From Candidatus Krumholzibacteriota bacterium (lineage in GTDB: Bacteria; Krumholzibacteriota; Krumholzibacteriia; JAJRXK01), in contig JAJRXK010000055.1 of NCBI GenBank assembly GCA_024276305.1, forward strand, positions 1 to 36,241: 36,241 nucleotides of DNA, written 5' to 3'. Numbering within the stretch: position 1 is the first letter of the stretch; each line of letters begins with the position of its first letter. Made by a program: the position numbers and the translations under genes. Shown piece by piece: positions 9,103 through 22,503 of this stretch. The notes below the pieces were generated by a model. That model did not search any database. It saw only the letters and a list, made by a program, of their open reading frames with translations, and was not told the origin of the DNA.

Positions 9103-9151
9103 CCCTCCAACCACCTACGATCACCGCTCCCCCTTGCCCGGGAGCCCTGCC

Positions 9152-10984
9152 TTGATCGGACGAAAGATTGCCCACTACGAGGTCCTCGCCAAAATCGGTG
9201 AGGGAGGGATGGGTGAGGTCTATCGCGCCCGCGACACGCGCCTCGGTCGCGAAGTCGCACTGAAGGTCCTTCCGCCGGCCTTTGCCAAAGACCCCGAGCG
9301 CCTCGCCCGTTTCCGCCGCGAAGCCAAGTTGCTCGCGTCGCTCCAGCACACTCACATCGCCGCGTTGCACGGGTTGGAGGAGGTGGGAAGTGAAGTCTTC
9401 TTGGCCATGGAGTTGGTCGAAGGTGAGGATCTGTCGGCGCGTCTCACCCGCGGCCCCCTGGATCTCGACGATGCTCTCGAGTTGGCGCGGCACTTTGCCG
9501 AGGGCCTCGAAGCCGCCCACGAGCAGAACATCGTGCACCGGGATCTCAAACCCGCGAATCTCAAGATCACTCCCGACGGTCAGCTCAAGATCCTGGACTT
9601 CGGTTTGGCGCGGGCATATCTGGGCGACGGGGGCGAGGGCGAAGACCTGGAGCAGTCGCCGACGATCACCGCCGCCCTCACCGCCCAAGGCATGATCCTG
9701 GGCACTGCGGCTTACATGAGCCCTGAGCAGGCGCGTGGTCGGCGCGTCGACCAACGCACCGACATATGGGCCTTCGGGGCGATCCTCTTCGAGATGGTCA
9801 GCGGCCAGCGCGTGTTCACCGGCGAGACGATCAGTGACACCATGGCTGCAGTGCTCCGCGCCGATCCTCCGTGGGAGGCCTTGCCCGCGGACATTCCATC
9901 CGGGGTACGACGCCTCATCGAGCGGTGTCTCGAACGGGATGCGCGGCGGCGATTGCGAGACATCGGCGAGGCGCGGGTGCGGTTGGAACGCTGGCGCGAC
10001 GACCCGGCGTCGGCCGATGAAACTACATCTGGTTCCCTGTCCGGCCCGACTCCGATCATCCAGGATCGCAGGGCAGTATGTTCGTGGTTTCCTTGGGGGC
10101 TCGTGGCGACGGCGGTGCTCATCATCGGCGTCATGGGCTGGCGCCTCGAATCGCGGCCCGCGGCGCAGCTTCCGATGATGGAGCTCAAGATTCGCCTCGA
10201 CCACGACGATCTTCTGGCCCCCACCGGGGGAGTGTTGAGCATCTCTCCCGATGGCAGCTGGATCGCGTGGCAAACCGCGACTGGTCTCTACCTGCGGGCC
10301 ATCAACAGCCAGGAGGCGCGACTCATCGATGGTTCGACGGACGGATTCGCGAGCTGCTTCTCGCCCGACAGCCAGTGGTTGGCCTTTGCGGGTGGGGGCG
10401 ATCTGCGGAGAGTGAGCGTCGGCGGCGGAAGTCCGATCAGCATCTGTCCGCTGGCGACGCCACGCGGATTGGCGTGGATCGACGATACCACGATCGTGTT
10501 TCCGCGAAGGATTTCCGACGGGTTGCAGATGGTCGACCTTCGTGATGGAAGCATCACGGCGCTGACAGAATTGAATGTGGCGATCAACGAGCGCAGTCAT
10601 CGCTGGCCCACCGCCGTGCCCGGCCGGAGGGCCGTTCTCTACGAGTGTCAGTTTCTGGGCCAGGACTACGATCAGAGTGATATTCGTATCGTCGATTTGG
10701 ACACCGGCATTTCGAAGGTCGTGCAACGGGGTGGGGCGGCGCCACAGGCCACCGCACAAGGGCAGCTATTGTTCGTGCGAGACCACACCCTCTTCGGCGT
10801 TCGCTTCGACCTACAGAGGGGTGAGATTCTCGGACTGCCCGTCCCGGTTCGAGAGGACATCGTGAGTTCGGTCGGCAATCAGGAGAATGACGACGGATCG
10901 GCTCAATTCAGAGTCGATGACCGGGGGACGCTCTTCTACGTCGACAGTGGAGGTGTCGGCAATCCCCTTCGACGACTGGTGTAG
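9152..10984 (+). CDS. PknB-type Ser/Thr protein kinase with membrane helix and N-terminal part of a beta-propeller
   Basis: A eukaryote-like kinase beginning (M)IGRKIAHYEVLAKIG. TTG at 9152 is chosen because family members start at this point and GGGAG lies just upstream; an in-frame TTG at 9134 would add six residues. All kinase motifs are present: glycine loop GEGGMGEV, VALK lysine, HRDLKPAN catalytic loop, DFGLA magnesium loop, GTAAYMSPEQARG and DIWAFGAILFEM. One transmembrane helix (about residues 311-331) separates the cytoplasmic kinase from TolB/WD40-like propeller blades (SPDGSWIAW and SPDSQWLAFAGGGDLRRV). The frame ends at TAG 10982-10984 in mid-propeller, and the rest of the propeller continues in the same frame afterwards. 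The kinase should be active; the sensor is truncated unless the stop is read through. Confidence 0.88.
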   Translation: MIGRKIAHYEVLAKIGEGGMGEVYRARDTRLGREVALKVLPPAFAKDPERLARFRREAKLLASLQHTHIAALHGLEEVGSEVFLAMELVEGEDLSARLTRGPLDLDDALELARHFAEGLEAAHEQNIVHRDLKPANLKITPDGQLKILDFGLARAYLGDGGEGEDLEQSPTITAALTAQGMILGTAAYMSPEQARGRRVDQRTDIWAFGAILFEMVSGQRVFTGETISDTMAAVLRADPPWEALPADIPSGVRRLIERCLERDARRRLRDIGEARVRLERWRDDPASADETTSGSLSGPTPIIQDRRAVCSWFPWGLVATAVLIIGVMGWRLESRPAAQLPMMELKIRLDHDDLLAPTGGVLSISPDGSWIAWQTATGLYLRAINSQEARLIDGSTDGFASCFSPDSQWLAFAGGGDLRRVSVGGGSPISICPLATPRGLAWIDDTTIVFPRRISDGLQMVDLRDGSITALTELNVAINERSHRWPTAVPGRRAVLYECQFLGQDYDQSDIRIVDLDTGISKVVQRGGAAPQATAQGQLLFVRDHTLFGVRFDLQRGEILGLPVPVREDIVSSVGNQENDDGSAQFRVDDRGTLFYVDSGGVGNPLRRLV

Positions 10985-12162: not shown

Positions 12163-14358
12163 CTATTTCTTCTCCGGGAGGCCCGCCATGTCGCGTTCGA
12201 TCCTGGCCACTCGAGTCGGGTCTGCTGGACTCACGTCCACTGACCTAGTCCCATTGGCCATCTGGAAGACCGTTACGTCCCACCAGGCAGCCTCGGACGT
12301 CCCGTTGAAATCCGCCGTCTCGAACAGATACGGGCCGTACGTTCGTGGCGTAGCCCCATCAAGCACGACGGTTACGCCGGCATTCGAGTAATCGTCTTGA
12401 TGAAGAGAGAAGCTGTTGACCTTCACGGTATAAGTGCCCTCCAACGCGTGAGTCGCCGTAAAGGTTTCGGGACCGAATCCCACTCTGTCATCAATGTCCA
12501 GGCTCCCTTCATCAATCGACTTGTTCGCGTAGTAGGCGTGCTGTCCAATCGGGTTCCATACGTGGAGATCTAAATCGCTTGTCGGCGTGTCCCAGCTGAG
12601 AATAATCACGATGTCGGCCGCTGCGAAATCGCCAAAAACGGTAACGAGATCACTATACCCGGTATCTCCATTCGAGCTCGTGGCTCGAACCCTCAACCTG
12701 TTGGCGCCTTCCACGATTCCGATCGTCGCAACGAACCGTCCGTTTGGATCGACCGCGACCGTTTGGTCTACACCGTTCAAAGACAGAATCGCGGTGTCTT
12801 CATCAAAGGTAATCAGCGCCCCATCAGGGCGACGCATCTGGACGAGGCCGCGCAACGGCGTTACTTGGCTGGAGATCCGCGCCTGATCTTCCGGAGATTC
12901 GATGGTAATCACAGGAATCGGCGGTTGAGGCTGCGTCAGAACTGCGGTGACCGTCGCCACCCCTCCATCGTAGAAGAGATCTACCGTGTAGTCGTTATAT
13001 CCATCCAACGACAATCGCAATCCATGCGTCCCCAGGGGGAACTCTTCCAACAACGCCGGCGTCACAAATCCAGTGCTGACACCATCCACACTGATCGTGG
13101 CCCCCTCCGGAATGCTGTTCACGAGCACTCCTGATCTGAGCTGATAGCACTCGTCAAACAGAGCGATCTCATCGGAAGCCAACACTTGATTGAAGTTAGC
13201 GAGTTCCAGATCCAGAATGTGCGCGCTGAATCCGAGGTCTAGGCCATAGCCAAAGTTGATGTCCGCACACCATTCAGTTGTGCCGGCCGAACCATTAAGA
13301 GAAACGTAGGGCTCAATCTGAAGGTTTGGGCCCGCGACGGAATACAGTTCGACGCTGATCCGAGGGCGGACGAACGCTCGTGCTTCCGCCTCGGCGTGAG
13401 CGCCAAAACTCGTCTCACCAGCTAGGGCCGTCGGCTGCACGCCAAATATGGGACTCCAACTATCATTGGAGTATTGAGCCCCGGCCGAGATCGCGGCGCC
13501 ACTAGTTACTCCATATACTGAGGTCATTTCCGCGTCGAACACGAATGAGTATCCGGCGACGATGTCGAAGGTAACAACCTCGACCACCGGAAGCCAACCA
13601 ACCATTTGGACGAACGTGTACGATGTGCTGTATACCAGCGTTGGTTCTGGAGAATAGTTCAGCCCACCGCTGACATCAATCTCGAGAGAAGCATCGAAGT
13701 CTATCTGGCCCCCAGCTATCGTATGGAACTCTTTGACTCGGGAGTCTTCCACCTCGAATCCAATCTCCAGATCTGGGCTAAAGCTCAAACTTCCGCTGAC
13801 GATTCGCGCGTGTGCGCGGACCTCACCGTGGTCTCCCTGAACCTGACCGTCGAAGATCATCACATCGTTCAACGAGATCAGGTCGAGGCCATCTACTCGA
13901 ACACCCTTCTGGAGATAGTTGACCCGTGACCCAAGATAGGTGCCCTCGGCGGCCGCCTTTTCTAGCGACTCGGGGTCGAACGAAAGGGTGCGATTCAACG
14001 TTCCGGTCTGAATGGCGTCTACAAGAGTCGCCTCGGTAGTCGTGATACGAACGCCATCGCCAGTATCCTCAACCGAGGAAACATGCCGAAGATACCCTCC
14101 TTGCTCAGTTCCTACGAGAATGTCACCGGGTTCTACTTGTGGGTCACTCCCCTGGTAGGAGAAGTTGAGTTCGGTCTCGGTCTTCGATGTCAGTGAGAGT
14201 CCGGCAGCGTTGGCAACGACCACATTGTCGCTGATCTGAGTTTCATCCGCTGACGGCGGGGGATCCATAAGGCCGTCATCATCCTTGTCCTTGCCGCATC
14301 CGCTTGGGGCGATCAGAACCAGGAGAAGGACCAACACCGCTTTGAGTTTCGGAGTCAT
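12163..14358 (-). CDS. Large lipoprotein with PEGA, Ig-like and DUF2135 domains
   Basis: A 731-residue surface lipoprotein. The signal peptide (MTPKLKAVLVLLLVLIAPSGC) ends at a plausible lipobox cysteine near residue 21, followed by a KDKDDDG spacer. ATG at 14358 is preferred over GTG at 14367. Residues 30 to about 410 are beta-rich and match no domain I can name. A PEGA domain follows (LVNSIPEGATISVDGVSTGFVTPA, about 415-475). After a PQPPIP linker comes an Ig-like domain (ITIESPEDQARISS, then EGANRLRVRATSSNGDTGYS). The last is a DUF2135-like domain (LSWDTPTSDLDLHVWNP and GFGPETFTATHALEGTYTVKV). It is probably an adhesin or envelope-polymer-binding protein. It diverges from the sigma-54 activator across 630 bases. 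The function is unproven. Confidence 0.85.
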   Translation of the reverse strand: MTPKLKAVLVLLLVLIAPSGCGKDKDDDGLMDPPPSADETQISDNVVVANAAGLSLTSKTETELNFSYQGSDPQVEPGDILVGTEQGGYLRHVSSVEDTGDGVRITTTEATLVDAIQTGTLNRTLSFDPESLEKAAAEGTYLGSRVNYLQKGVRVDGLDLISLNDVMIFDGQVQGDHGEVRAHARIVSGSLSFSPDLEIGFEVEDSRVKEFHTIAGGQIDFDASLEIDVSGGLNYSPEPTLVYSTSYTFVQMVGWLPVVEVVTFDIVAGYSFVFDAEMTSVYGVTSGAAISAGAQYSNDSWSPIFGVQPTALAGETSFGAHAEAEARAFVRPRISVELYSVAGPNLQIEPYVSLNGSAGTTEWCADINFGYGLDLGFSAHILDLELANFNQVLASDEIALFDECYQLRSGVLVNSIPEGATISVDGVSTGFVTPALLEEFPLGTHGLRLSLDGYNDYTVDLFYDGGVATVTAVLTQPQPPIPVITIESPEDQARISSQVTPLRGLVQMRRPDGALITFDEDTAILSLNGVDQTVAVDPNGRFVATIGIVEGANRLRVRATSSNGDTGYSDLVTVFGDFAAADIVIILSWDTPTSDLDLHVWNPIGQHAYYANKSIDEGSLDIDDRVGFGPETFTATHALEGTYTVKVNSFSLHQDDYSNAGVTVVLDGATPRTYGPYLFETADFNGTSEAAWWDVTVFQMANGTRSVDVSPADPTRVARIERDMAGLPEKK

Positions 14359-14989
14359 TGCCAACACCCCATTTCCAAGGTACGAGACGATCCGCTCACG
14401 ATTCCTTGGGGTTGGTTAGCTGCTGCAATCACTTTCTCTCGAGATCCGGAAGCCACTTCCAAGATATCAGAGTCCGTGAGTCGCTCACCGGCAACCCCAC
14501 CTGCTCGACTGATACGGAACCGCGTGTGGACCTCTGATCTATGTCCGCAACGACCACGTGATTCGTCGCAACAGAGTCAATCAGGGTTCGTGAGGTGCGG
14601 ACCGCTATCCTCGGAAGCCACCGTAACCCTAGAATGACTGAGATCAGCTCGTCAACCCAAGTCTATCGTCACGCAGATCGCACAATCCTGCGTTTTGACC
14701 ACGGAGGACATGTATGTGCCTGATCGTTCTGACCCTGCGCCTCGGTCAAGCGCTCAACAGTCGCCGAATTGCGAGCACGCGATCAACACCTGAGCGATAC
14801 GATGACCTGTCATTCCGACTAGACACCTCAGAGGTGGACGCTTGGACGTTGTGGGATTGCGAGAGATGAAGTGATCCAATACGCCCGGCCACGAATTCTA
14901 TAACTCAACCTTGACGAATGCAGCGTGGACGCTATTATCGCGAACACTCACATGGGGTTCCCGGTTCACATTCGGATGATTGAGGAAAG
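14359..14989. other. Non-coding divergent region
   Basis: About 630 bases between the divergent lipoprotein and sigma-54 activator genes. I see no convincing ORF, RNA gene or repeat. The only recognisable elements are the sigma-70-type promoter at 14911-14938 and the Shine-Dalgarno of the activator gene. The region looks less GC-rich than the flanking genes. It is long enough for activator-binding sites or a small RNA, but I cannot point to one. Confidence 0.5.
14911..14938 (+). promoter_or_regulatory. Sigma-70-type promoter of the sigma-54 activator gene
   Basis: TTGACG (14911-14916) and TATTAT (14933-14938), 16 bases apart, are close to the housekeeping consensus and point at the activator gene 50 bases downstream. 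The Shine-Dalgarno TGAGGAA (14981-14987) precedes its ATG at 14990. Confidence 0.6.
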
Positions 14990-16030
14990 ATGCGCGAGCC
15001 CCCCTGTACGCAAGTGCGTTCGAGTTTGCTTATCGGTAGCAGTGATAGAATGAAGGCCCTGCGGGACCGAATAGAGACCCTCGCGGCTACCGATCCCCAA
15101 GTAACGATTCTCATTTGGGGCCCTTCCGGTGCAGGAAAAGAGCTCGTTGCGAAGGAGATCCATGCGAAGAATCCTTCGACCAATCACGGGGACTTTGTGG
15201 CAGTCGATCTCAGCTACGTTCCACGTGAGCTCGCGGGAAGCCGCCTTTTCGGTCATGTGAAGGGTGCATTCACAGGAGCCAATGAGCGGCATTCAGGCGC
15301 CTTCGAGGCGGGGGCTGGGGGTACGGTGTTCCTGGACGAAGTCTCGAGCATCAGTCTGGAGTTTCAAGGCATGTTTCTGCGTGTGCTGCAGGAACGGGAG
15401 TTCTCGCCGTTGGGAAGCACCAAGGTTCTGAGAATGAACGCTAGGATTATTGCGGCAAGCAATGAAAACCTGTGGAAGAAGGTTCAACGAGGCCTATTTC
15501 GGCAAGACCTCTATTTTCGATTGCAAGTGCTCCAGATTGTCGTTCCGAGTCTGGAGGCCCGCGTCTCCGATATTCCAGAGCTGGCGCGCCACTTCATAGA
15601 ACGACACGGGCCGAAGGTGGGTTGCCGCGCAGATATGGATGTTGATCCGCGGTTCTTTGCTGCTCTCAAGCGGCGTCGTTGGCCAGGCAACGTGCGACAG
15701 CTCGAGAACACAATCATTCAATCACTCGCGATGGCCGTGGGTTCGGACACGCTTTCGCTTGAGCACCTCGCTTCGGAGGGACCCGAGATCGATGCGGGTA
15801 CGAGCTTCGAGACGAGAAGTTTGTATGAATTGTCCTATTCCGAAGCGCAGAAACTCTCGTTGCAGCAGTTCAAGCGCGCGTATTGGACGCATAAGCTGGA
15901 GTTGGCGAATGGCAATGTGGCCGCTGCCGCACGAATGGGTGATGTGATCCCTTCGAGTTTGCATCGGATGTTGAAAGACATTGGTCTTCGTGAGGATGCT
16001 CCTAGGGCGGACGATGAGTTCGAAGGATAG
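14990..16030 (+). CDS. Sigma-54-dependent transcriptional activator without a receiver domain
   Basis: A 346-residue bacterial enhancer-binding protein made of the AAA+ core and a DNA-binding tail. Visible motifs are Walker A GPSGAGKE (about residue 45), the sigma-54 contact loop GAFTGA within GHVKGAFTGANER, Walker B GGTVFLDEVSSI and the arginine-finger segment FRQDLYFRLQVLQIVVPSL. These are followed by the RRRWPGNVRQLEN lid. The C-terminus has a Fis-type helix-turn-helix (NGNVAAAARMGDVIPSSLHRMLKDIGL). There is no N-terminal receiver, GAF or PAS domain, as in PspF, so control must come from a partner protein or from its expression level. Directly downstream, before the first cohesin/dockerin gene, is a consensus sigma-54 promoter, so this gene is the likely activator of that operon. 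Confidence 0.93.
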   Translation: MREPPCTQVRSSLLIGSSDRMKALRDRIETLAATDPQVTILIWGPSGAGKELVAKEIHAKNPSTNHGDFVAVDLSYVPRELAGSRLFGHVKGAFTGANERHSGAFEAGAGGTVFLDEVSSISLEFQGMFLRVLQEREFSPLGSTKVLRMNARIIAASNENLWKKVQRGLFRQDLYFRLQVLQIVVPSLEARVSDIPELARHFIERHGPKVGCRADMDVDPRFFAALKRRRWPGNVRQLENTIIQSLAMAVGSDTLSLEHLASEGPEIDAGTSFETRSLYELSYSEAQKLSLQQFKRAYWTHKLELANGNVAAAARMGDVIPSSLHRMLKDIGLREDAPRADDEFEG

Positions 16031-16177
16031 AGCCGTATCGATAACATCGATGCGACAACATCGTTACATCAATGTTATGAACTCGGAGTGGTTGCAGAGA
16101 ATGTGGGCACAGGGAGAACATCATGAAATAGTTGAGAGACAGACACTTAGACTGAATAGAAGGGTGAGTTCTCTGAA

Positions 16178-16192
16178 TGGCACACCGATTGC
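16178..16192 (+). promoter_or_regulatory. Sigma-54 (RpoN) promoter
   Basis: TGGCACACCGATTGC matches the -24/-12 consensus TGGCAC-N5-TTGC at every fixed base, with exactly ten bases between GG and GC. Transcription should begin around 16203-16206, about 90 bases ahead of the first secreted-protein gene. It lies about 150 bases after an activator gene with an intact GAFTGA loop. Confidence 0.85.
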
Positions 16193-16293
16193 GCTAGAGG
16201 TTGCGAGTGCAAGGGCTCCCGGGGCCTCTCACGCAGCGTGAAGTGGCTCGCTCGCAATCGCATGTTCCATCCATCGAGGAGGAAGTTAGAGTG

Positions 16294-18030
16294 ATGATGC
16301 AACGAAGCGGGCTCGCGGTCGCTGCCCTTGCGGCACTGATCGCGTTTGCCGGAATGCTAGTTCCGTCCGCGGCTTCAGCTGGATGTATCAATGTCTACGT
16401 ACCAGAAACGACCGAAGTCAACCCAGGCACCCAAATCTCCATCCCCGTGACGGTCTCCGATGTGGCCCAGGGTGTTTGGCCGATCTACAGCTTTGAGCTC
16501 GAGATCGAGTATTGCACGGGGCAAGACGCGATGCTGACATTCACTGGCGCCAGCAATGGTCCCATGCTGGACGCCGCCGGGTGGCCGTCGCTGACATACT
16601 TCGAATGGCGTGCCGGAGGCGTCAAGCTCGCCAACGCCGGGTCCATTCCTCTTTCGGGCGATGGGGTGCTGATCAATCTGAATTTCACGGTCAGCGCTGG
16701 TGCCCAGCCTTGCGACGTCTGCGACCTCAACATCGTGAGTATGGTGGCGAATGATGCGGCGCAGGCCGTGGACTTTTGTACGGATGACGGTCAAATCTAC
16801 GTCGGAGCCGACTCTCGTACAGGCCACATCAAGTATCGTGATGGCGATCGTCCCGTCCCGAAGGTAAAGGTGCGCCTCTATGCGGATCTGAACGGATCCT
16901 CCTATCAACGCACGACCTGGACTGATGCCAACGGCGACTACCATTTCACGTGTCTGCCGAAGGGACTGGCGAATGCGCGAGTTGTGCCGAGCAAGTCCTA
17001 TGACCAGGACGTAGAGACCGCGGTGGGAACCGCAGATGCTTCGATCATCCTGCGTCGCACGGTGATGAATCCCAATGCGAACGCGTATTTCAGGGAGGGT
17101 GCGACGCTTTGTGGCAATGCCCAGGACTTCGAGGCGGCCGACACTGCAGGAGATGGCGACATTTCGGCCTACGACGCGTCGTTGCTTCTTCAGTTCGCAG
17201 TGCTCGCTCGCTCGCACATGCCGGCATGGGACGGAAGAGACTGGATCTTCTGTGCGGAAGATTCAGAGAATATGTGGAACGAGGGCCCCACTGACACCAC
17301 CGACTTCACGGCGATTCTGATTGGCGATGTGAACCGGAACTGGGGAAGACCCGAGCTCGGTAAGGGCGTTGGTGGAAGCGTCGATGTACATCTGGCGCGC
17401 GGATCTGTTGCTGAAGATGGGTCGGTTCTGTTGCCGATCGAGCTTGGGTCGGGAAGTGCGGTCAGCAATGGAGTACTCGAACTGCGCCTCCCGGCGGGCG
17501 TCAACTTGGTCCGGGCTACGGCCGGATCGGGGGCGCATGGCGCACTCGTTGCCGCAAACCAGGACGGTAAGACGGTTCGAGTCGCGTTCGCCCGCGCGGC
17601 GAACGTCGAGAACGAAAGCGGTCTCGTCACCCTTCGACTCCGCTCCAATAGTGGAGATGTGGAAGGCGCTGAGCTGGTGTCTGCGTCGTTCGAAGACGGC
17701 CAGGTGAGGGGCAGCATTGGTCAGATGAACCAGACCAACCTGCCGGCATCTGACACTCTGCGGCTGATGGGGAATCGGCCGAACCCGTTCAATCCTCAGA
17801 CGTCGATCCGTTTCTACCTCCCAGATCGGGTGAAGACTTCGGTGTACATCTATGACCAGGCGGGCCATCGGGTGCGGACCCTCGTCAACAACGAAGCCCT
17901 CTCGGGAGATGTCTCGTTGGTCTGGAACGGGACGAACGACAGCGGCAGGTCTGTAGCGAGTGGCGTCTACTACTATCAAGTGAAGGCTGGCATGTGGTCG
18001 AGCACTGCCAAAATGACCTTGGTGAAGTAG
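16294..18030 (+). CDS. Secreted cohesin-dockerin protein with FlgD-like C-terminal sorting domain
   Basis: A 578-residue exported protein. ATG at 16294 follows GAGGAGGAAG at 16276-16285. The signal peptide ends near ASA at residue 29. Residues 35-168 are cohesin-like (EVNPGTQISIPVTVSDV, then YSFELEIEY). Residues 172-235 resemble a carboxypeptidase-regulatory Ig fold (TWTDANGDYHFTCLPKG). Residues 238-303 form a dockerin-like pair: a degenerate first half (TADASIILRRTV) and a good calcium loop with Asp283, Asp287, Asp289 and Asp294 (DTAGDGDISAYDASLLLQ). A second cohesin-like domain spans about 361-470. The end (491-578; NRPNPFNPQTSIRFYL, then GVYYYQVKAG) is a FlgD-type Ig tail as used for type IX-like sorting. 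It carries no catalytic module. It is the first gene behind the sigma-54 promoter. Confidence 0.87.
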   Translation: MMQRSGLAVAALAALIAFAGMLVPSAASAGCINVYVPETTEVNPGTQISIPVTVSDVAQGVWPIYSFELEIEYCTGQDAMLTFTGASNGPMLDAAGWPSLTYFEWRAGGVKLANAGSIPLSGDGVLINLNFTVSAGAQPCDVCDLNIVSMVANDAAQAVDFCTDDGQIYVGADSRTGHIKYRDGDRPVPKVKVRLYADLNGSSYQRTTWTDANGDYHFTCLPKGLANARVVPSKSYDQDVETAVGTADASIILRRTVMNPNANAYFREGATLCGNAQDFEAADTAGDGDISAYDASLLLQFAVLARSHMPAWDGRDWIFCAEDSENMWNEGPTDTTDFTAILIGDVNRNWGRPELGKGVGGSVDVHLARGSVAEDGSVLLPIELGSGSAVSNGVLELRLPAGVNLVRATAGSGAHGALVAANQDGKTVRVAFARAANVENESGLVTLRLRSNSGDVEGAELVSASFEDGQVRGSIGQMNQTNLPASDTLRLMGNRPNPFNPQTSIRFYLPDRVKTSVYIYDQAGHRVRTLVNNEALSGDVSLVWNGTNDSGRSVASGVYYYQVKAGMWSSTAKMTLVK

Positions 18031-18044
18031 CTCTCTCTGAATGG

Positions 18045-18074
18045 GGTGGTCCGCAGCGGTGAGCGCGGACCACC
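18045..18074 (+). terminator. Perfect 10-bp hairpin between the two dockerin genes
   Basis: GGTGGTCCGC (18045-18054) pairs with GCGGACCACC (18065-18074) around a 10-base loop, 15 bases after the first gene's stop. Only a weak T-containing stretch follows. It may be a partial terminator or an mRNA-stabilising end that sets different levels for the upstream and downstream genes. Confidence 0.5.
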
Positions 18075-18215
18075 TCAATTCGCAGTTCGGCGCACTCCGT
18101 ACACGACCGAGCGCAACGTCCGGGACGCAAGCACACCCTGCACTCGGATTGTCGATAAGGCCGCGTTCGCATGCCGAACCCGATGACTGGCCTATGAACC
18201 GCAGAGGCGACCGAG

Positions 18216-20996
18216 ATGAATAGAACCTCACGACAGGCTCTGATGGCGGGCCTGATTTGTCTATTGCTTCCCGCGGCGTCGGCCGCGAGGGGCCTTCAGA
18301 TTCTCAACGTCGATGAATCTGCATTCCCGACCCTCCGCGCTACAGTGGCGATACAGGACGACCGAGGGGCTGCCACTTGTGGTCTTCCCCTATCCGAGTT
18401 TCGAGTTACGGAGGATGGCGTGTCTGCTTCCGTTGGCGGAGTCCAATGGTCGGGCGACAGCTGCGAGCGAAATCTGATTCTGGTCATTGATCGTAGTGCG
18501 TTGACGAGCTTCCAGAACCGCTTGGAGTGTGCCAAGGACGAAGCAAACCTACTGCTCGACGAACTGGATCCAGGAGATTCGGTCACGGTGATCGCCTATG
18601 GTGGGTGCTCGGAAGTTCTCGTTCCTCGCACGAACGATATCGCGAGCGCCCGCGAGGCAATCAATGGCCTGACAGCGATGGGTCGGGCGGCAATGGCCGA
18701 CGGGATCTATCACGCGATACAAGAGGCCTGCGCCCAAGGCGGTGGGTCCGTTGTCTGGATGGGCCACGGGGCAGATACGGGCAGCGCCGATTGCGGATTT
18801 CCTCCCGACGGGACGGATATTGATGGTCTGAGCGACGACGGGGATCTCATTCGAGACTTGGCCGCCGGGTGTGAGATCACCTTCAATGCAGTGATGTCTT
18901 CGACGGTCAACCGCGGTTGGATCGAGAGCCTGACCAACGACTTGGGGGGGCGTGTTACAGTATGTGGGAACAGTACCACCGCGGACCGTCGGGCGTGGTT
19001 GGGATCCTCTCCGGAGGACTGTTGTCAGGCGGTACTGACCTTCGTGAGCCCTCGACCAGACCTCGATGGGAGCCTTCGCGGCCTACAGATCTGTGTGGAT
19101 CGCTACGCGGTCTGCGGCACAGGAGAGTATCGAGCGGAATGCTCATCGCAGCTTCGATTGACCGCGGATACGCGGAATCTTCTCGAATCGGGATCCTGTG
19201 TGATCGCGGATTCGACGACTACTATCGAGGTGGAGGGGAGGATCTGCGATGACTTCACCGGATTGATGCATGTGAACTCTTCCCTCGGTGGGAGTGTCGC
19301 TGTGCCGTTCCTCTCCCTGCAGAACGGGTACTCTGCACAGATGCCGTCGTCGTTGCTCGTGCCGAATGCCGTCCTTGACGTCTACCTAGATGGAATACTC
19401 GATGGTTCGTCGTGGCGAGAGCCGACAGCAGGATCCTACTCGCTGGCTGTCTGCTCCACGGACCCCAACGACTCGCTAGCTGTTTCCTTGGGATCTGTCT
19501 CTATCCGTCCGGGTGCAGAAGGAAGCATCGACTTGGTCATATCGGGCGGCACACTGCCCTATATAGCGTCCTATGAAGTCGATCTTCGGCTGGCAACGCC
19601 AGGAGTATCGATTCTCTCGATATCGCAGTCCGGATCAGTGACGGAGGCGGCTTCATGGCTGTCGCCGGCCTGGAACGAACTGAGCCCAGGAATCTATCGT
19701 GTGAGCGCAGCCGGTGCGTCGAGAATCCAAAGCTTTGGAAGTCTCGCTACTCTACGTATTGGTGTCAGCTCGAGTTCACAGCCTGGGTGTATTCCTCTGG
19801 AGATCGTTCGTGTTCAACTCAACGACGGTGTGCCAGACCCTCTAAGTGTTTCCGGTGAGGTCTGCATCCAGGAAGGATGCTTCGAGGGCCAAGTTGTGCA
19901 TTGGTCTGGAACACAAGAGGGCCTGGAAGGTGTTTCTGTCCTGCGTGTTGGTGATGGGATACCAATCACGCGCAGCGGAGCCGATGGGAGATACGAGATA
20001 TGTGACAACGTTGAATCTGGTGACCGGCTTTTCTTCGAATCGGAAACTAGTGCACGGCCACGTGTGACGCCTCTCGACGCGTCTGATGTGCTCCGAGCCA
20101 CGGTGGGCCTTGATGATCTGCAAAGCGTAGAACTTACCGGCCCTTGTGGGCCCTCCTATCCCAGAGAGCTTGCTGCGGACGTTTCTGGGGACGGAGAGAT
20201 TGGGGCCTATGATGCGTCGCTGATTCTGCAGTATGTCGTGCAGTCCATCCAGGGGTTCCCCGTGGACGAATGGACCTTTGTGTGTCCGACGAAGTTAGTT
20301 GAGTCGAGCCGGAGCCTCGGTGTGACCTACGGAATTGCGGCGGGCGATGTCAATGGGAATTCGGGTGCCTCAGATCCATTGCTTCGCACGCCGCAGCCAC
20401 CTCAGGCCGCCAAACTTCGATTCGATCTCGGGGACGACGGAATACGTACTCTACGGGCGCTCGGACCAGAGGTGCGAGCTGGGATGCTGACGCTGGAACT
20501 CGACGACGTAGATGTAGATATCGAGGCACAGCCGGGGATTGTGGTTGCGGAATCCCGCAATGGAGGAACGGTGACCATTGCATTCGCGTGCTCCGGCCGT
20601 AGCGATGGAGAAGCCCTCTTGTCGATTCGCGGGGGGCACTTCTCGGTCGTAGAAGGATCGGTCGTTGTCAATGATCATGCATCTGTCGTGGAGAGTGAAG
20701 GCGTGTGGGCGGGTTCGAAGATGCCCAGCCGAATATTTCTGCGGGTCCGATCGCTGAGCGAAGGCGTTGAGTTCTCGTGGGCTACATCCGCGGCGGCACA
20801 ATCAAAGATCAGGATCTACGATTCCAGGGGGCGCCGCGTGCATGAAGTGCACCTTTCGTCGGCCGAAGGGTCTCTGCGTTGGCGCGGCGTTGATCAACGC
20901 GGAGTATCGCTGGCACGAGGCGTGTACTTCGCTGCACTACACACAGGTTCCAAAGCCGAGTTGGTCCGGAAGTTCATCCTTTCCCCGAAACCCTGA
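18216..20996 (+). CDS. Secreted vWA-cohesin-dockerin protein with FlgD-like C-terminal domain
   Basis: A 926-residue exported protein. The signal peptide ends near ASAARG at about residue 25. A von Willebrand A-like domain follows (about 85-270: NLILVIDRSALTSF, then AMADGIYHAIQEAC), but its metal site departs from DxSxS. The middle is Cys-rich. Around 420-545 is a cohesin-like domain (GSIDLVISGG and YEVDLRLATPGVSILSIS). A short Ig-like repeat precedes a dockerin pair at about 617-680: degenerate TPLDASDVLRATVGL, then the intact calcium loop ADVSGDGEIGAYDASLILQYVV. The last 85 residues are a degenerate FlgD-like tail (IRIYDSRGRRVHEV, then GVSLARGVYFAAL). The layout parallels the upstream protein, pointing to shared ancestry of the dockerin-to-tail portion. 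ATG at 18216 has GAGGCGACCGAG upstream. Confidence 0.85.
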   Translation: MNRTSRQALMAGLICLLLPAASAARGLQILNVDESAFPTLRATVAIQDDRGAATCGLPLSEFRVTEDGVSASVGGVQWSGDSCERNLILVIDRSALTSFQNRLECAKDEANLLLDELDPGDSVTVIAYGGCSEVLVPRTNDIASAREAINGLTAMGRAAMADGIYHAIQEACAQGGGSVVWMGHGADTGSADCGFPPDGTDIDGLSDDGDLIRDLAAGCEITFNAVMSSTVNRGWIESLTNDLGGRVTVCGNSTTADRRAWLGSSPEDCCQAVLTFVSPRPDLDGSLRGLQICVDRYAVCGTGEYRAECSSQLRLTADTRNLLESGSCVIADSTTTIEVEGRICDDFTGLMHVNSSLGGSVAVPFLSLQNGYSAQMPSSLLVPNAVLDVYLDGILDGSSWREPTAGSYSLAVCSTDPNDSLAVSLGSVSIRPGAEGSIDLVISGGTLPYIASYEVDLRLATPGVSILSISQSGSVTEAASWLSPAWNELSPGIYRVSAAGASRIQSFGSLATLRIGVSSSSQPGCIPLEIVRVQLNDGVPDPLSVSGEVCIQEGCFEGQVVHWSGTQEGLEGVSVLRVGDGIPITRSGADGRYEICDNVESGDRLFFESETSARPRVTPLDASDVLRATVGLDDLQSVELTGPCGPSYPRELAADVSGDGEIGAYDASLILQYVVQSIQGFPVDEWTFVCPTKLVESSRSLGVTYGIAAGDVNGNSGASDPLLRTPQPPQAAKLRFDLGDDGIRTLRALGPEVRAGMLTLELDDVDVDIEAQPGIVVAESRNGGTVTIAFACSGRSDGEALLSIRGGHFSVVEGSVVVNDHASVVESEGVWAGSKMPSRIFLRVRSLSEGVEFSWATSAAAQSKIRIYDSRGRRVHEVHLSSAEGSLRWRGVDQRGVSLARGVYFAALHTGSKAELVRKFILSPKP

Positions 20997-21013
20997 AAGA
21001 GAAGAGGAACCCA

Positions 21014-21529
21014 ATGCAGATGCAGAAGGTGTGTATCGCGAGTCTTCTGGCTCTAGCGGTCACAATCTCCACCATGCCCGCGGCTGGAGCCCCTGCGCGG
21101 GCGAGCATCGACGCCGTAATGATGCACGTTGGCGATGTGCGGACAACAACCATTCGCATCGATGTCGGAGATGTAGTGAACCTCTACGGAGCAGAAGCAC
21201 GAATCGAATACGATCCGACGGTTGTACGGCCGATCATCGTTCGATCGGCAGATCCGATCCGCCAGGTTTGGGGAAGTCCGGTGTACAACATCATGGACGG
21301 TCTCGTCGCCATCGCCATCGCCGGCGTGACATCCGTGACCAGCCCCTCCACGCTCTTCGAGGTGGATTTCGAAGCGGTCGGCGTCGGGGTCACTACGCTC
21401 GGACTTCCGCGAGTGATTCTGAACGACGTTCAGGTGCAAGACCGGGTGACCGGAAGCGCTAGGGTCGTCCCGTTGGGAACCGTGGCCGCAGAAGCATCCT
21501 CTTGGAGTGCGATCAAGCAATTGTATTGA
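21014..21529 (+). CDS. Secreted single-cohesin protein
   Basis: A 171-residue exported protein. A signal peptide ends near AAGA at about residue 26, then one cohesin-like domain spans about 31-155. It shows VGDVRTTTIRIDVGDVVNLYGAEARIEYDPTVV, the first-strand and GxE..i.YDP pattern of cohesins and cohesin-like cell-surface modules, and later ATLFEVDFEAVG-type strands (here STLFEVDFEAVGVG). There is no dockerin and no FlgD tail. GAAGAGGAA precedes the ATG, and only 17 bases separate it from the previous stop, so it is co-transcribed. It may be the free partner that receives the dockerins of the two upstream proteins. The direction of any pairing is inference. Confidence 0.82.
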   Translation: MQMQKVCIASLLALAVTISTMPAAGAPARASIDAVMMHVGDVRTTTIRIDVGDVVNLYGAEARIEYDPTVVRPIIVRSADPIRQVWGSPVYNIMDGLVAIAIAGVTSVTSPSTLFEVDFEAVGVGVTTLGLPRVILNDVQVQDRVTGSARVVPLGTVAAEASSWSAIKQLY

Positions 21530-21576
21530 TCGTGCCGGAAGGCATCATCACTCGGCGAAAGTCGGGTGGATGGGGA

Positions 21577-21604
21577 GTGCGCCGGGTCCAAGGGCCCGGC
21601 GCGC
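21577..21604 (+). terminator. Strong hairpin closing the cohesin/dockerin operon
   Basis: GCGCCGGG (21579-21586) pairs with CCCGGCGC (21595-21602), extendable by one G-U and one G-C pair to 21577 and 21604, around an eight-base loop. It is followed by CTTCT rather than a clean T-run. It sits about 50 bases after the stop of the lone cohesin gene and just before the IS remnant. Confidence 0.6.
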
Positions 21605-21607
21605 TTC

Positions 21608-21745
21608 TGACCCCCCCCTGAAAACTGGACCCACTGAAACAGGAATCTTCTGGCGAAGGTCTTACGGTTGGAGCCACGAGGGATTTGATGAAGAGATCGA
21701 AGTTTAGCGAGGAGCAGATTGCCTTTGCGCTGCGGCAAGCGGATC
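21608..21745 (+). mobile_element. IS3-family left-end remnant with OrfA start
   Basis: TGACCCCCCCCTGAAAACTG at 21608 has the form of an IS3-family left terminal inverted repeat. About 75 bases later a frame starts MKRSKFSEEQIAFALRQAD (ATG at 21688), which is the highly conserved N-terminus of IS3-type OrfA. Similarity ends there. The helix-turn-helix, OrfB and the right end are missing, and the frame continues as nonsense antisense to the next gene. It is a dead stub marking an old insertion with deletion, which ended at the 3' end of the neighbouring membrane-protein gene. Confidence 0.82.
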
Positions 21746-21750
21746 TTCCT

Positions 21751-22503
21751 CTATCCACTCCGACCGGAGTCCGCGAGGTCGTCGAAGATCGTGGGCCCCA
21801 CACTGCCGCAAGCATGTGCGAAGTCCATGACGTCTCTCCACCACGGATGATTTCGCTGAAGGTTCAGGGCCGACAGGAGCTCCCGGGCTTGTCGAGGGCG
21901 ATGAAGTTGCGCGCAGGCGATGGCTCCGAGCAGAACGACTTCGCCCGAACTGGGATAGCGATCTCGTAGGGTCGCCAGTTGAAGCAACGCTTCGAGGGGC
22001 CGGGCCCGTTGCACCCGAGCCAAAGCCAGTAGGTAGCGAGCGGCGGGGTCTTCTGGAACCACACGCACATAGTGGGCGAGATCCTCGTCGAGCGAAGCGA
22101 CGGCACGGCGACGTCTCAGGGCACGTCGCAGAACCCGAGCGCGACGACGGGCCTCGTGATGTTGGGTCATGGCGTGCCACCGAAAGAGCATGACTGCGGA
22201 GGGAACCGCGGCGCTCCACCATATGGGCAGCCCGATCTCCCACAGCAATACCAGCGCTGCGATCCATGGCAGGAGTGTCTGGACGATCCACTTGGTCCAA
22301 TGCGGGGAAGGCCCCAGACGCCAAGGAAGACGCGCCAAGGGCATCGACGCCATGCGGGCGAGGACGGGCTCGGCTGCGCGCCACGGCTCGCGGATCCCAC
22401 CGGATCGTCCGCCTCGAGGAGAGAGCGGAGCATCGGAGGGTGCGGAAAGTCCGATGCGAGGCAACGCAGCCGAACGCAGATCGGATCCATGGTAATCGAG
22501 CAT
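21751..22503 (-). CDS. Membrane protein with TPR-like C-terminal repeats
   Basis: A 250-residue protein starting MLDYHGSDLR at 22503, where GGAGG is well placed; the longer upstream frame lacks such a signal. Two adjacent hydrophobic segments at about residues 78-112 (WIVQTLLPWIAALVLLWEIGLPIWWSAAVPSAVMLF) form a membrane hairpin. A very basic stretch follows (EARRRARVLRRALRRRR). The last 100 residues are helical and TPR-like (DPAARYLLALARVQRARPLEALLQLATLRDRYPSSGEVVLLGAIA). No specific family recognised. Its stop lies within a few bases of the IS3 remnant, so the natural C-terminus may have been altered. Confidence 0.72.
   Translation of the reverse strand: MLDYHGSDLRSAALPRIGLSAPSDAPLSPRGGRSGGIREPWRAAEPVLARMASMPLARLPWRLGPSPHWTKWIVQTLLPWIAALVLLWEIGLPIWWSAAVPSAVMLFRWHAMTQHHEARRRARVLRRALRRRRAVASLDEDLAHYVRVVPEDPAARYLLALARVQRARPLEALLQLATLRDRYPSSGEVVLLGAIACAQLHRPRQARELLSALNLQRNHPWWRDVMDFAHACGSVGPTIFDDLADSGRSG

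Follow-up and report, generated by a model that had tools for sequence, protein, structure and literature searches.

The 36,241-nucleotide window analysed here, the whole stretch of contig examined from a Candidatus Krumholzibacteriota MAG (genome size 3.5 Mb), contains a self-contained four-gene cassette that apparently specifies a regulated surface structure and not a cellulose-digesting complex. It probably encodes an extracellular cohesin-dockerin assembly switched by sigma-54, a reading in which module binding and on/off switching are inferred. The genes P0001, P0002, P0003 and P0004 follow one another in this order, all on the plus strand:

14990-16030, plus strand: P0001, stand-alone sigma-54 enhancer-binding protein, AAA+ plus helix-turn-helix (HTH), no sensor domain (Pfam, orthologs, motifs)
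16294-18030, plus strand: P0002, with signal peptide, cohesin, Carboxypeptidase-reg-like linker, apparently permuted dockerin, second beta-sandwich and T9SS type A/FlgD-like C-terminal domain
18216-20996, plus strand: P0003, with VWA-like domain, cohesin, apparently permuted dockerin and FlgD-like C-terminus
21014-21529, plus strand: P0004, exported lone cohesin (signal peptide plus one cohesin)

The four-gene set occurs in unchanged order in all four family genomes examined and is absent from the remaining 76 of the 80 phylum genomes. Full matches to a profile of the P0002 cohesin-dockerin region are likewise confined to the family members (4 of 80 genomes). The orthologs of P0002, P0003 and P0004 lie directly downstream of the P0001 ortholog in each of the three other family genomes, and the MAGs with an equivalent locus are, where named, Candidatus Krumholzibacteriota. 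The conserved synteny of activator, -24/-12 site and cohesin/dockerin genes that a preliminary description of this DNA had proposed to look for in related genomes is therefore seen in 4/4 family genomes, a support consisting of four genomes only. The same description had named the occurrence of the structural genes without the activator in most genomes as evidence against its proposal, and profile search of the 80 phylum genomes found no such case. Apart from one kinase homolog at one locus, none of the tested flanking genes is shared with the other three loci, so that the four genes appear to be retained as a unit while their surroundings change. This kinase, downstream of the cassette in G001 (L030) and possibly there by chance, is homologous to the Ser/Thr kinase with weak WD40/PD40-like repeats encoded at 9134-10984 of the window. 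A large PEGA-domain protein with a lipoprotein-like signal (12163-14367, minus strand), divergent to the activator, was not found at the other three loci. In the relative G002, an additional cohesin protein with a weak FlgD-like end lies inside the cluster (L045:3391-4191).

The preliminary description had assigned cohesin-like modules to three exported proteins, an assignment borne out by profile searches against solved structures and by fold. Besides the single cohesin of P0004 (PF00963 1.7e-4), the modules are:

16393-16713, plus strand: cohesin module of P0002 (PF00963 7.5e-9, AlphaFold, Foldseek)
19494-19890, plus strand: cohesin module of P0003 (alignment with other cohesins)

Judged by profile and predicted jelly-roll fold, the cohesin modules are real. 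The P0002 cohesin passes the Pfam cut-off and that of P0004 falls just below it (22.3 bits, cut-off 24.1), while a cohesin-family profile headed by P0004, whose ortholog occupies the equivalent place in all three other family genomes, matched solved PDB cohesins at 1.7e-7. AlphaFold predicted a confident cohesin in P0002 (pLDDT about 70-90), and the 20 best solved structures returned by Foldseek for this module were all cohesin-containing chains, with TM-scores by target mostly of 0.7-0.8 against single cohesins and about 15-20% identity to cellulosomal cohesins. The structure predictions left out the same-genus ortholog (L030). The genome encodes further cohesin-domain proteins without a cassette-type dockerin (G000:C110:30450 and 35769, G000:C84:14763), the last of which is a second lone cohesin ending in STWTTLKSRYR, as in the tag family described below.

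The dockerin-like modules likewise stand as far as homology is concerned, but they depart from the standard dockerin order and look permuted:

17023-17346, plus strand: apparently permuted dockerin of P0002 (alignments, whole-genome profile match)
20064-20366, plus strand: apparently permuted dockerin of P0003, VTPLDAS ... AADVSGDGEIGAYDAS ... GDVNGNSG (PDB dockerins 2.5e-9)

The match of the dockerin profile to solved PDB dockerins at 2.5e-9 is confined to the single complete loop-helix. All eight copies share one module order, in which the second half of loop 1 and helix 1 (I-S-A-L-D-A-S-x-x-L) are followed by the complete loop 2 with helix 2 and then by GDVNG. This pentapeptide, which makes up the first half of calcium loop 1, is thus located at the C-terminal end of the dockerin. 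In natural order, three of five tested modules score under the Pfam dockerin cut-off; moving the GDVNG end to the front raised all scores and brought all five over it (for example from 24.5 to 36.8 bits, and for Dockerin_1 of P0003 from 19.8 to 29.9 bits), with coverage beginning at profile position 1-2 as opposed to about 9 or later. Since restoring the standard order lifts the scores over the cut-off, the arrangement is read as a circular permutation. Each module has one complete calcium loop and, as it stands, is without the first half of loop 1 in its standard place; it does not conform to a type I dockerin, which has two calcium-loop-helix repeats in standard order, and is better described as dockerin-homologous but rearranged. 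The preliminary description would have been contradicted by modules of other folds, and here AlphaFold and Foldseek uphold the cohesin fold, whereas the dockerin fold is not confidently predicted: the module modelled alone gave a mean pLDDT of 50, and in the P0002 model the dockerin region falls below 50, with no docked cohesin-dockerin pair readable.

The divergence of these sequences from cellulosomal cohesins and the single complete calcium loop in each dockerin are also what would be expected if the cassette is genuine and under sigma-54 control, yet encodes modules that have no affinity for each other and play a structural or ligand-binding part in ordinary surface adhesins. The presence in the genome of other cohesins without a cassette-type dockerin fits as well, as does the VWA-like domain of P0003 (18474-18722; orthologs L030-L032), which lacks a metal-binding MIDAS (DRSAL in the window, Asp replaced by Ser in orthologs): with this motif lost the domain is probably structural, and the missing metal-binding Asp in the orthologs read suggests inert scaffolding. 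Such a non-binding arrangement is nevertheless rather unlikely, given that cohesins and dockerins always share one operon and that dockerins of this type are confined to it, as would befit a closed set of partners. Profile search of the four family genomes found exactly two cassette-type dockerins per genome, both inside the cassette, and none outside it.

The preliminary description had recognised P0001 as a stand-alone enhancer-binding protein with an intact GAFTGA loop, and this holds. Pfam assigns Sigma54_activat at 2.4e-55, and the protein comprises a sigma-54 AAA+ domain, a lid and a C-terminal HTH that was read from the sequence and is conserved in orthologs without a Pfam hit; Walker A, Walker B and GAFTGA are all intact, as in bacterial enhancer-binding proteins generally, and no sensor domain was found in P0001. 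Its orthologs in the three other family genomes are 57-64% identical and score at least 390 bits against 221 for the best non-orthologous activator in 58 genomes; a search for related loci with the activator alone as query returned none. In two orthologous activators GAFTGA is replaced by GAFTDA, a listed variant expected to retain activation in Desulfovibrio enhancer-binding proteins (PMC4641369), a genus in which the cell exterior accounts for the largest group of sigma-54 operons (PMC4641369). An identification of P0001 as PspF was rejected, its score against the NCBIfam PspF model lying far under the cut-off (176.9 vs 443.6 bits). Sensor-less enhancer-binding proteins of the PspF and HrpR/HrpS type consist of AAA+ domain and HTH only and are encoded next to their target. 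P0001 resembles them in both respects, and differs in that its putative target is a surface-protein operon.

The sites that may connect this activator with the operon, and the hairpin that closes the cluster, are:

16041-16078, no strand assigned: candidate upstream activator site ATAACATCGATG-N14-CATCAATGTTAT (12-bp arms with 1 mismatch; inferred)
16178-16193, plus strand: -24/-12 sigma-54 promoter TGGCACACCGATTGCG, expected start near 16204 (best site in 4/4 orthologous gaps)
21573-21608, plus strand: strong hairpin without T-run (folding energy)

The exact match to TGGCAC-N5-TTGC reported downstream of the activator is indeed present at 16178-16192. This string was rejected as stand-alone evidence: it is unremarkable by itself because 11 sites occur genome-wide against 8 for the reversed control. 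The promoter owes its significance instead to where it lies and to the fact that orthologs conserve it. In the gap separating the activator from the first structural gene, the best -24/-12 site of the four genomes is found 119, 129, 119 and 120 nt ahead of the start codon, with shuffle P values of 0.007, 0.004, 0.027 and 0.057, the last two individually weak, and a combined P of 4e-5; a lack of conservation, which the preliminary description had specified as counting against it, is thus not observed. With rpoN present as a single copy in the genome, the locus has the features of a sigma-54-dependent operon. The absence of genome-wide enrichment would also suit a -24/-12 match arising by chance, with the activator controlling other genes and the operon using another promoter. 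This is quite improbable, however, in view of the combined P value for best sites at nearly equal distance in 4/4 orthologous gaps, the perfect co-occurrence of activator and operon, and the fact that no sigma-70-like promoter was found ahead of the structural genes.

The dyad at 16041-16078 (P=0.009 by shuffling) is tentatively proposed as an activator site. Two of the three orthologs (L030, L031) have looser dyads at about the same place, the third being without a clear one, and a single activator site conserved across all four genomes was rejected, comparable dyads being present only in the window, L030 and L031. The strong hairpin previously described as closing the cluster is real (16-bp stem; -54.7 kcal/mol over 91 nt, z -4.8), but it lacks a T-run and therefore is no standard intrinsic terminator. 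Directly after the cluster, at 21610-21760, lies a broken-off IS3-like remnant with a TGAAAACTGGACCC end followed by MKRSKFSEEQIAFALRQA (weak HTH_Tnp_1 match).

Two kinds of C-terminal ends are found on the structural proteins:

17779-18012, plus strand: T9SS type A sorting domain-like C-terminus of P0002 (TIGR04183 27.2 bits, cut-off 23; PF13860 4e-12)
21497-21526, plus strand: C-terminal tag SSWSAIKQLY of P0004 (W/K/Y motif in orthologs, one deviation)

With its C-terminus over the TIGR04183 cut-off and SprA, itself over cut-off, encoded in the genome together with four C25 peptidases, P0002 has the features of type A cargo of the type IX system. P0003 and P0004 do not conform to such cargo in the same way: the C-terminus of P0003 is type IX-like (FlgD-like) but under the TIGR04183 cut-off, and P0004 has no such domain and a different short tail.

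The C-termini of P0004 and its orthologs read SWSAIKQLY, TWGEVKSHYQPRR, SLGQWKLRYIR and SWGGIKAMYGRDG. Counted by a degenerate DNA pattern for [ST]-W-small-x-hydrophobic-K-x-x-[YF]-R-stop, with the reversed pattern as control, the tag [ST]-W-[GS]-x-[IVL]-K-x-x-[YF]-R-stop is found at 516 sites in 72 of 80 phylum genomes, as compared to 2 for the control. The motif without the following stop occurs at roughly 109 sites and is about five times rarer, whereas by chance about a twelvefold excess over the stop-terminated form would be expected. Among the tag-bearing proteins that were sampled, most carry a signal peptide and have otherwise unrelated domains (beta-helices, redoxin, X25, cohesin); common to them are upstream V..E.S preferences that the pattern does not impose, and the extended form V-x-x-E-x-S-[ST]-W-G-x-I-K-x-L-Y-R-stop sits on unrelated exported proteins throughout Krumholzibacteriota (L003:1336-1887; L051-L080). 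Neither NCBIfam nor Pfam contains a model common to these proteins. The tail of P0004 is a variant of the tag without the final R, and the case for its membership is therefore made by W, K and Y, which are conserved. The tag looks like a sorting tag, apparently an undescribed one, and would indicate that this uncultured phylum sorts proteins by a route so far unrecognised.

In the mechanism proposed here, the sensor-less P0001, once made or freed from inhibition, would bind ahead of the -24/-12 promoter at 16178, thereby driving sigma-54 transcription of P0002-P0003-P0004. P0002 and P0003 would be exported, with delivery to the surface probably by the type IX system via their FlgD-like C-terminal domains. 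With a cohesin and a permuted dockerin combined on each of them, they could join head to tail, form a chain or pair with each other. The lone cohesin P0004, perhaps positioned through the C-terminal tag that it bears, might act as their cap, tether or bridge. A bolder version, possible but advanced only tentatively, would see in this assembly a sigma-54-switched polymer whose permuted dockerins close their calcium loop only when the module ends meet, and whose free cohesin is placed by an undescribed phylum-wide sorting tag. If this is true, permuted dockerin and tag are both new kinds of parts. From a permuted dockerin one would learn in what way this fold accommodates rearrangement, and protein engineers could use it as an orthogonal pair.

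To our knowledge, cohesin-dockerin pairing is known almost only from cellulosomes, and for most stray cohesins and dockerins of other organisms we know of no role. Because the operon unites three cohesins with two dockerins as a closed set, encodes no enzymes and comes with a switch of its own, the role of non-cellulosomal cohesins can be tested directly here. Searches of the literature for permuted dockerins and for sigma-54-controlled cohesin/dockerin systems or such a layout returned nothing relevant, which is weak evidence of novelty as subscription journals lay mostly outside the search. Domain search found no glycoside hydrolase or carbohydrate-binding module in P0001-P0004, and the loci are without glycoside hydrolase; since, in addition, the four genomes have no dockerin of this type outside the cassette, the earlier statement that this is not a cellulosome is supported, and cellulosome membership was rejected. 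A rudimentary cellulosome scaffold, whose enzymes would carry other dockerins elsewhere in the genome, is suggested by the similarity of the cohesins to cellulosomal ones but is hardly tenable in light of the same evidence.

The cassette shares with the cellulosome (CipA/ScaA scaffoldins, type I pairs) the same cohesin fold, and its calcium-loop-helix repeats are homologous to type I dockerins. It differs in having neither enzymes nor a carbohydrate-binding module, in carrying cohesin and dockerin on one chain, in its apparently circularly permuted dockerin, in its sigma-54 control and in its apparent T9SS export in a phylum of Gram-negative type. In its way of working the cassette is comparable to a scaffold system, without being a cellulosome. 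P0004 in turn resembles the autonomous cohesins of Ruminococcus flavefaciens (PDB 4n2o; ScaG cohesin 4wkz), as the whole protein is a single free cohesin, but is set apart from them by its W-x-x-I-K-x-x-Y tag and by candidate partners encoded in the same operon.
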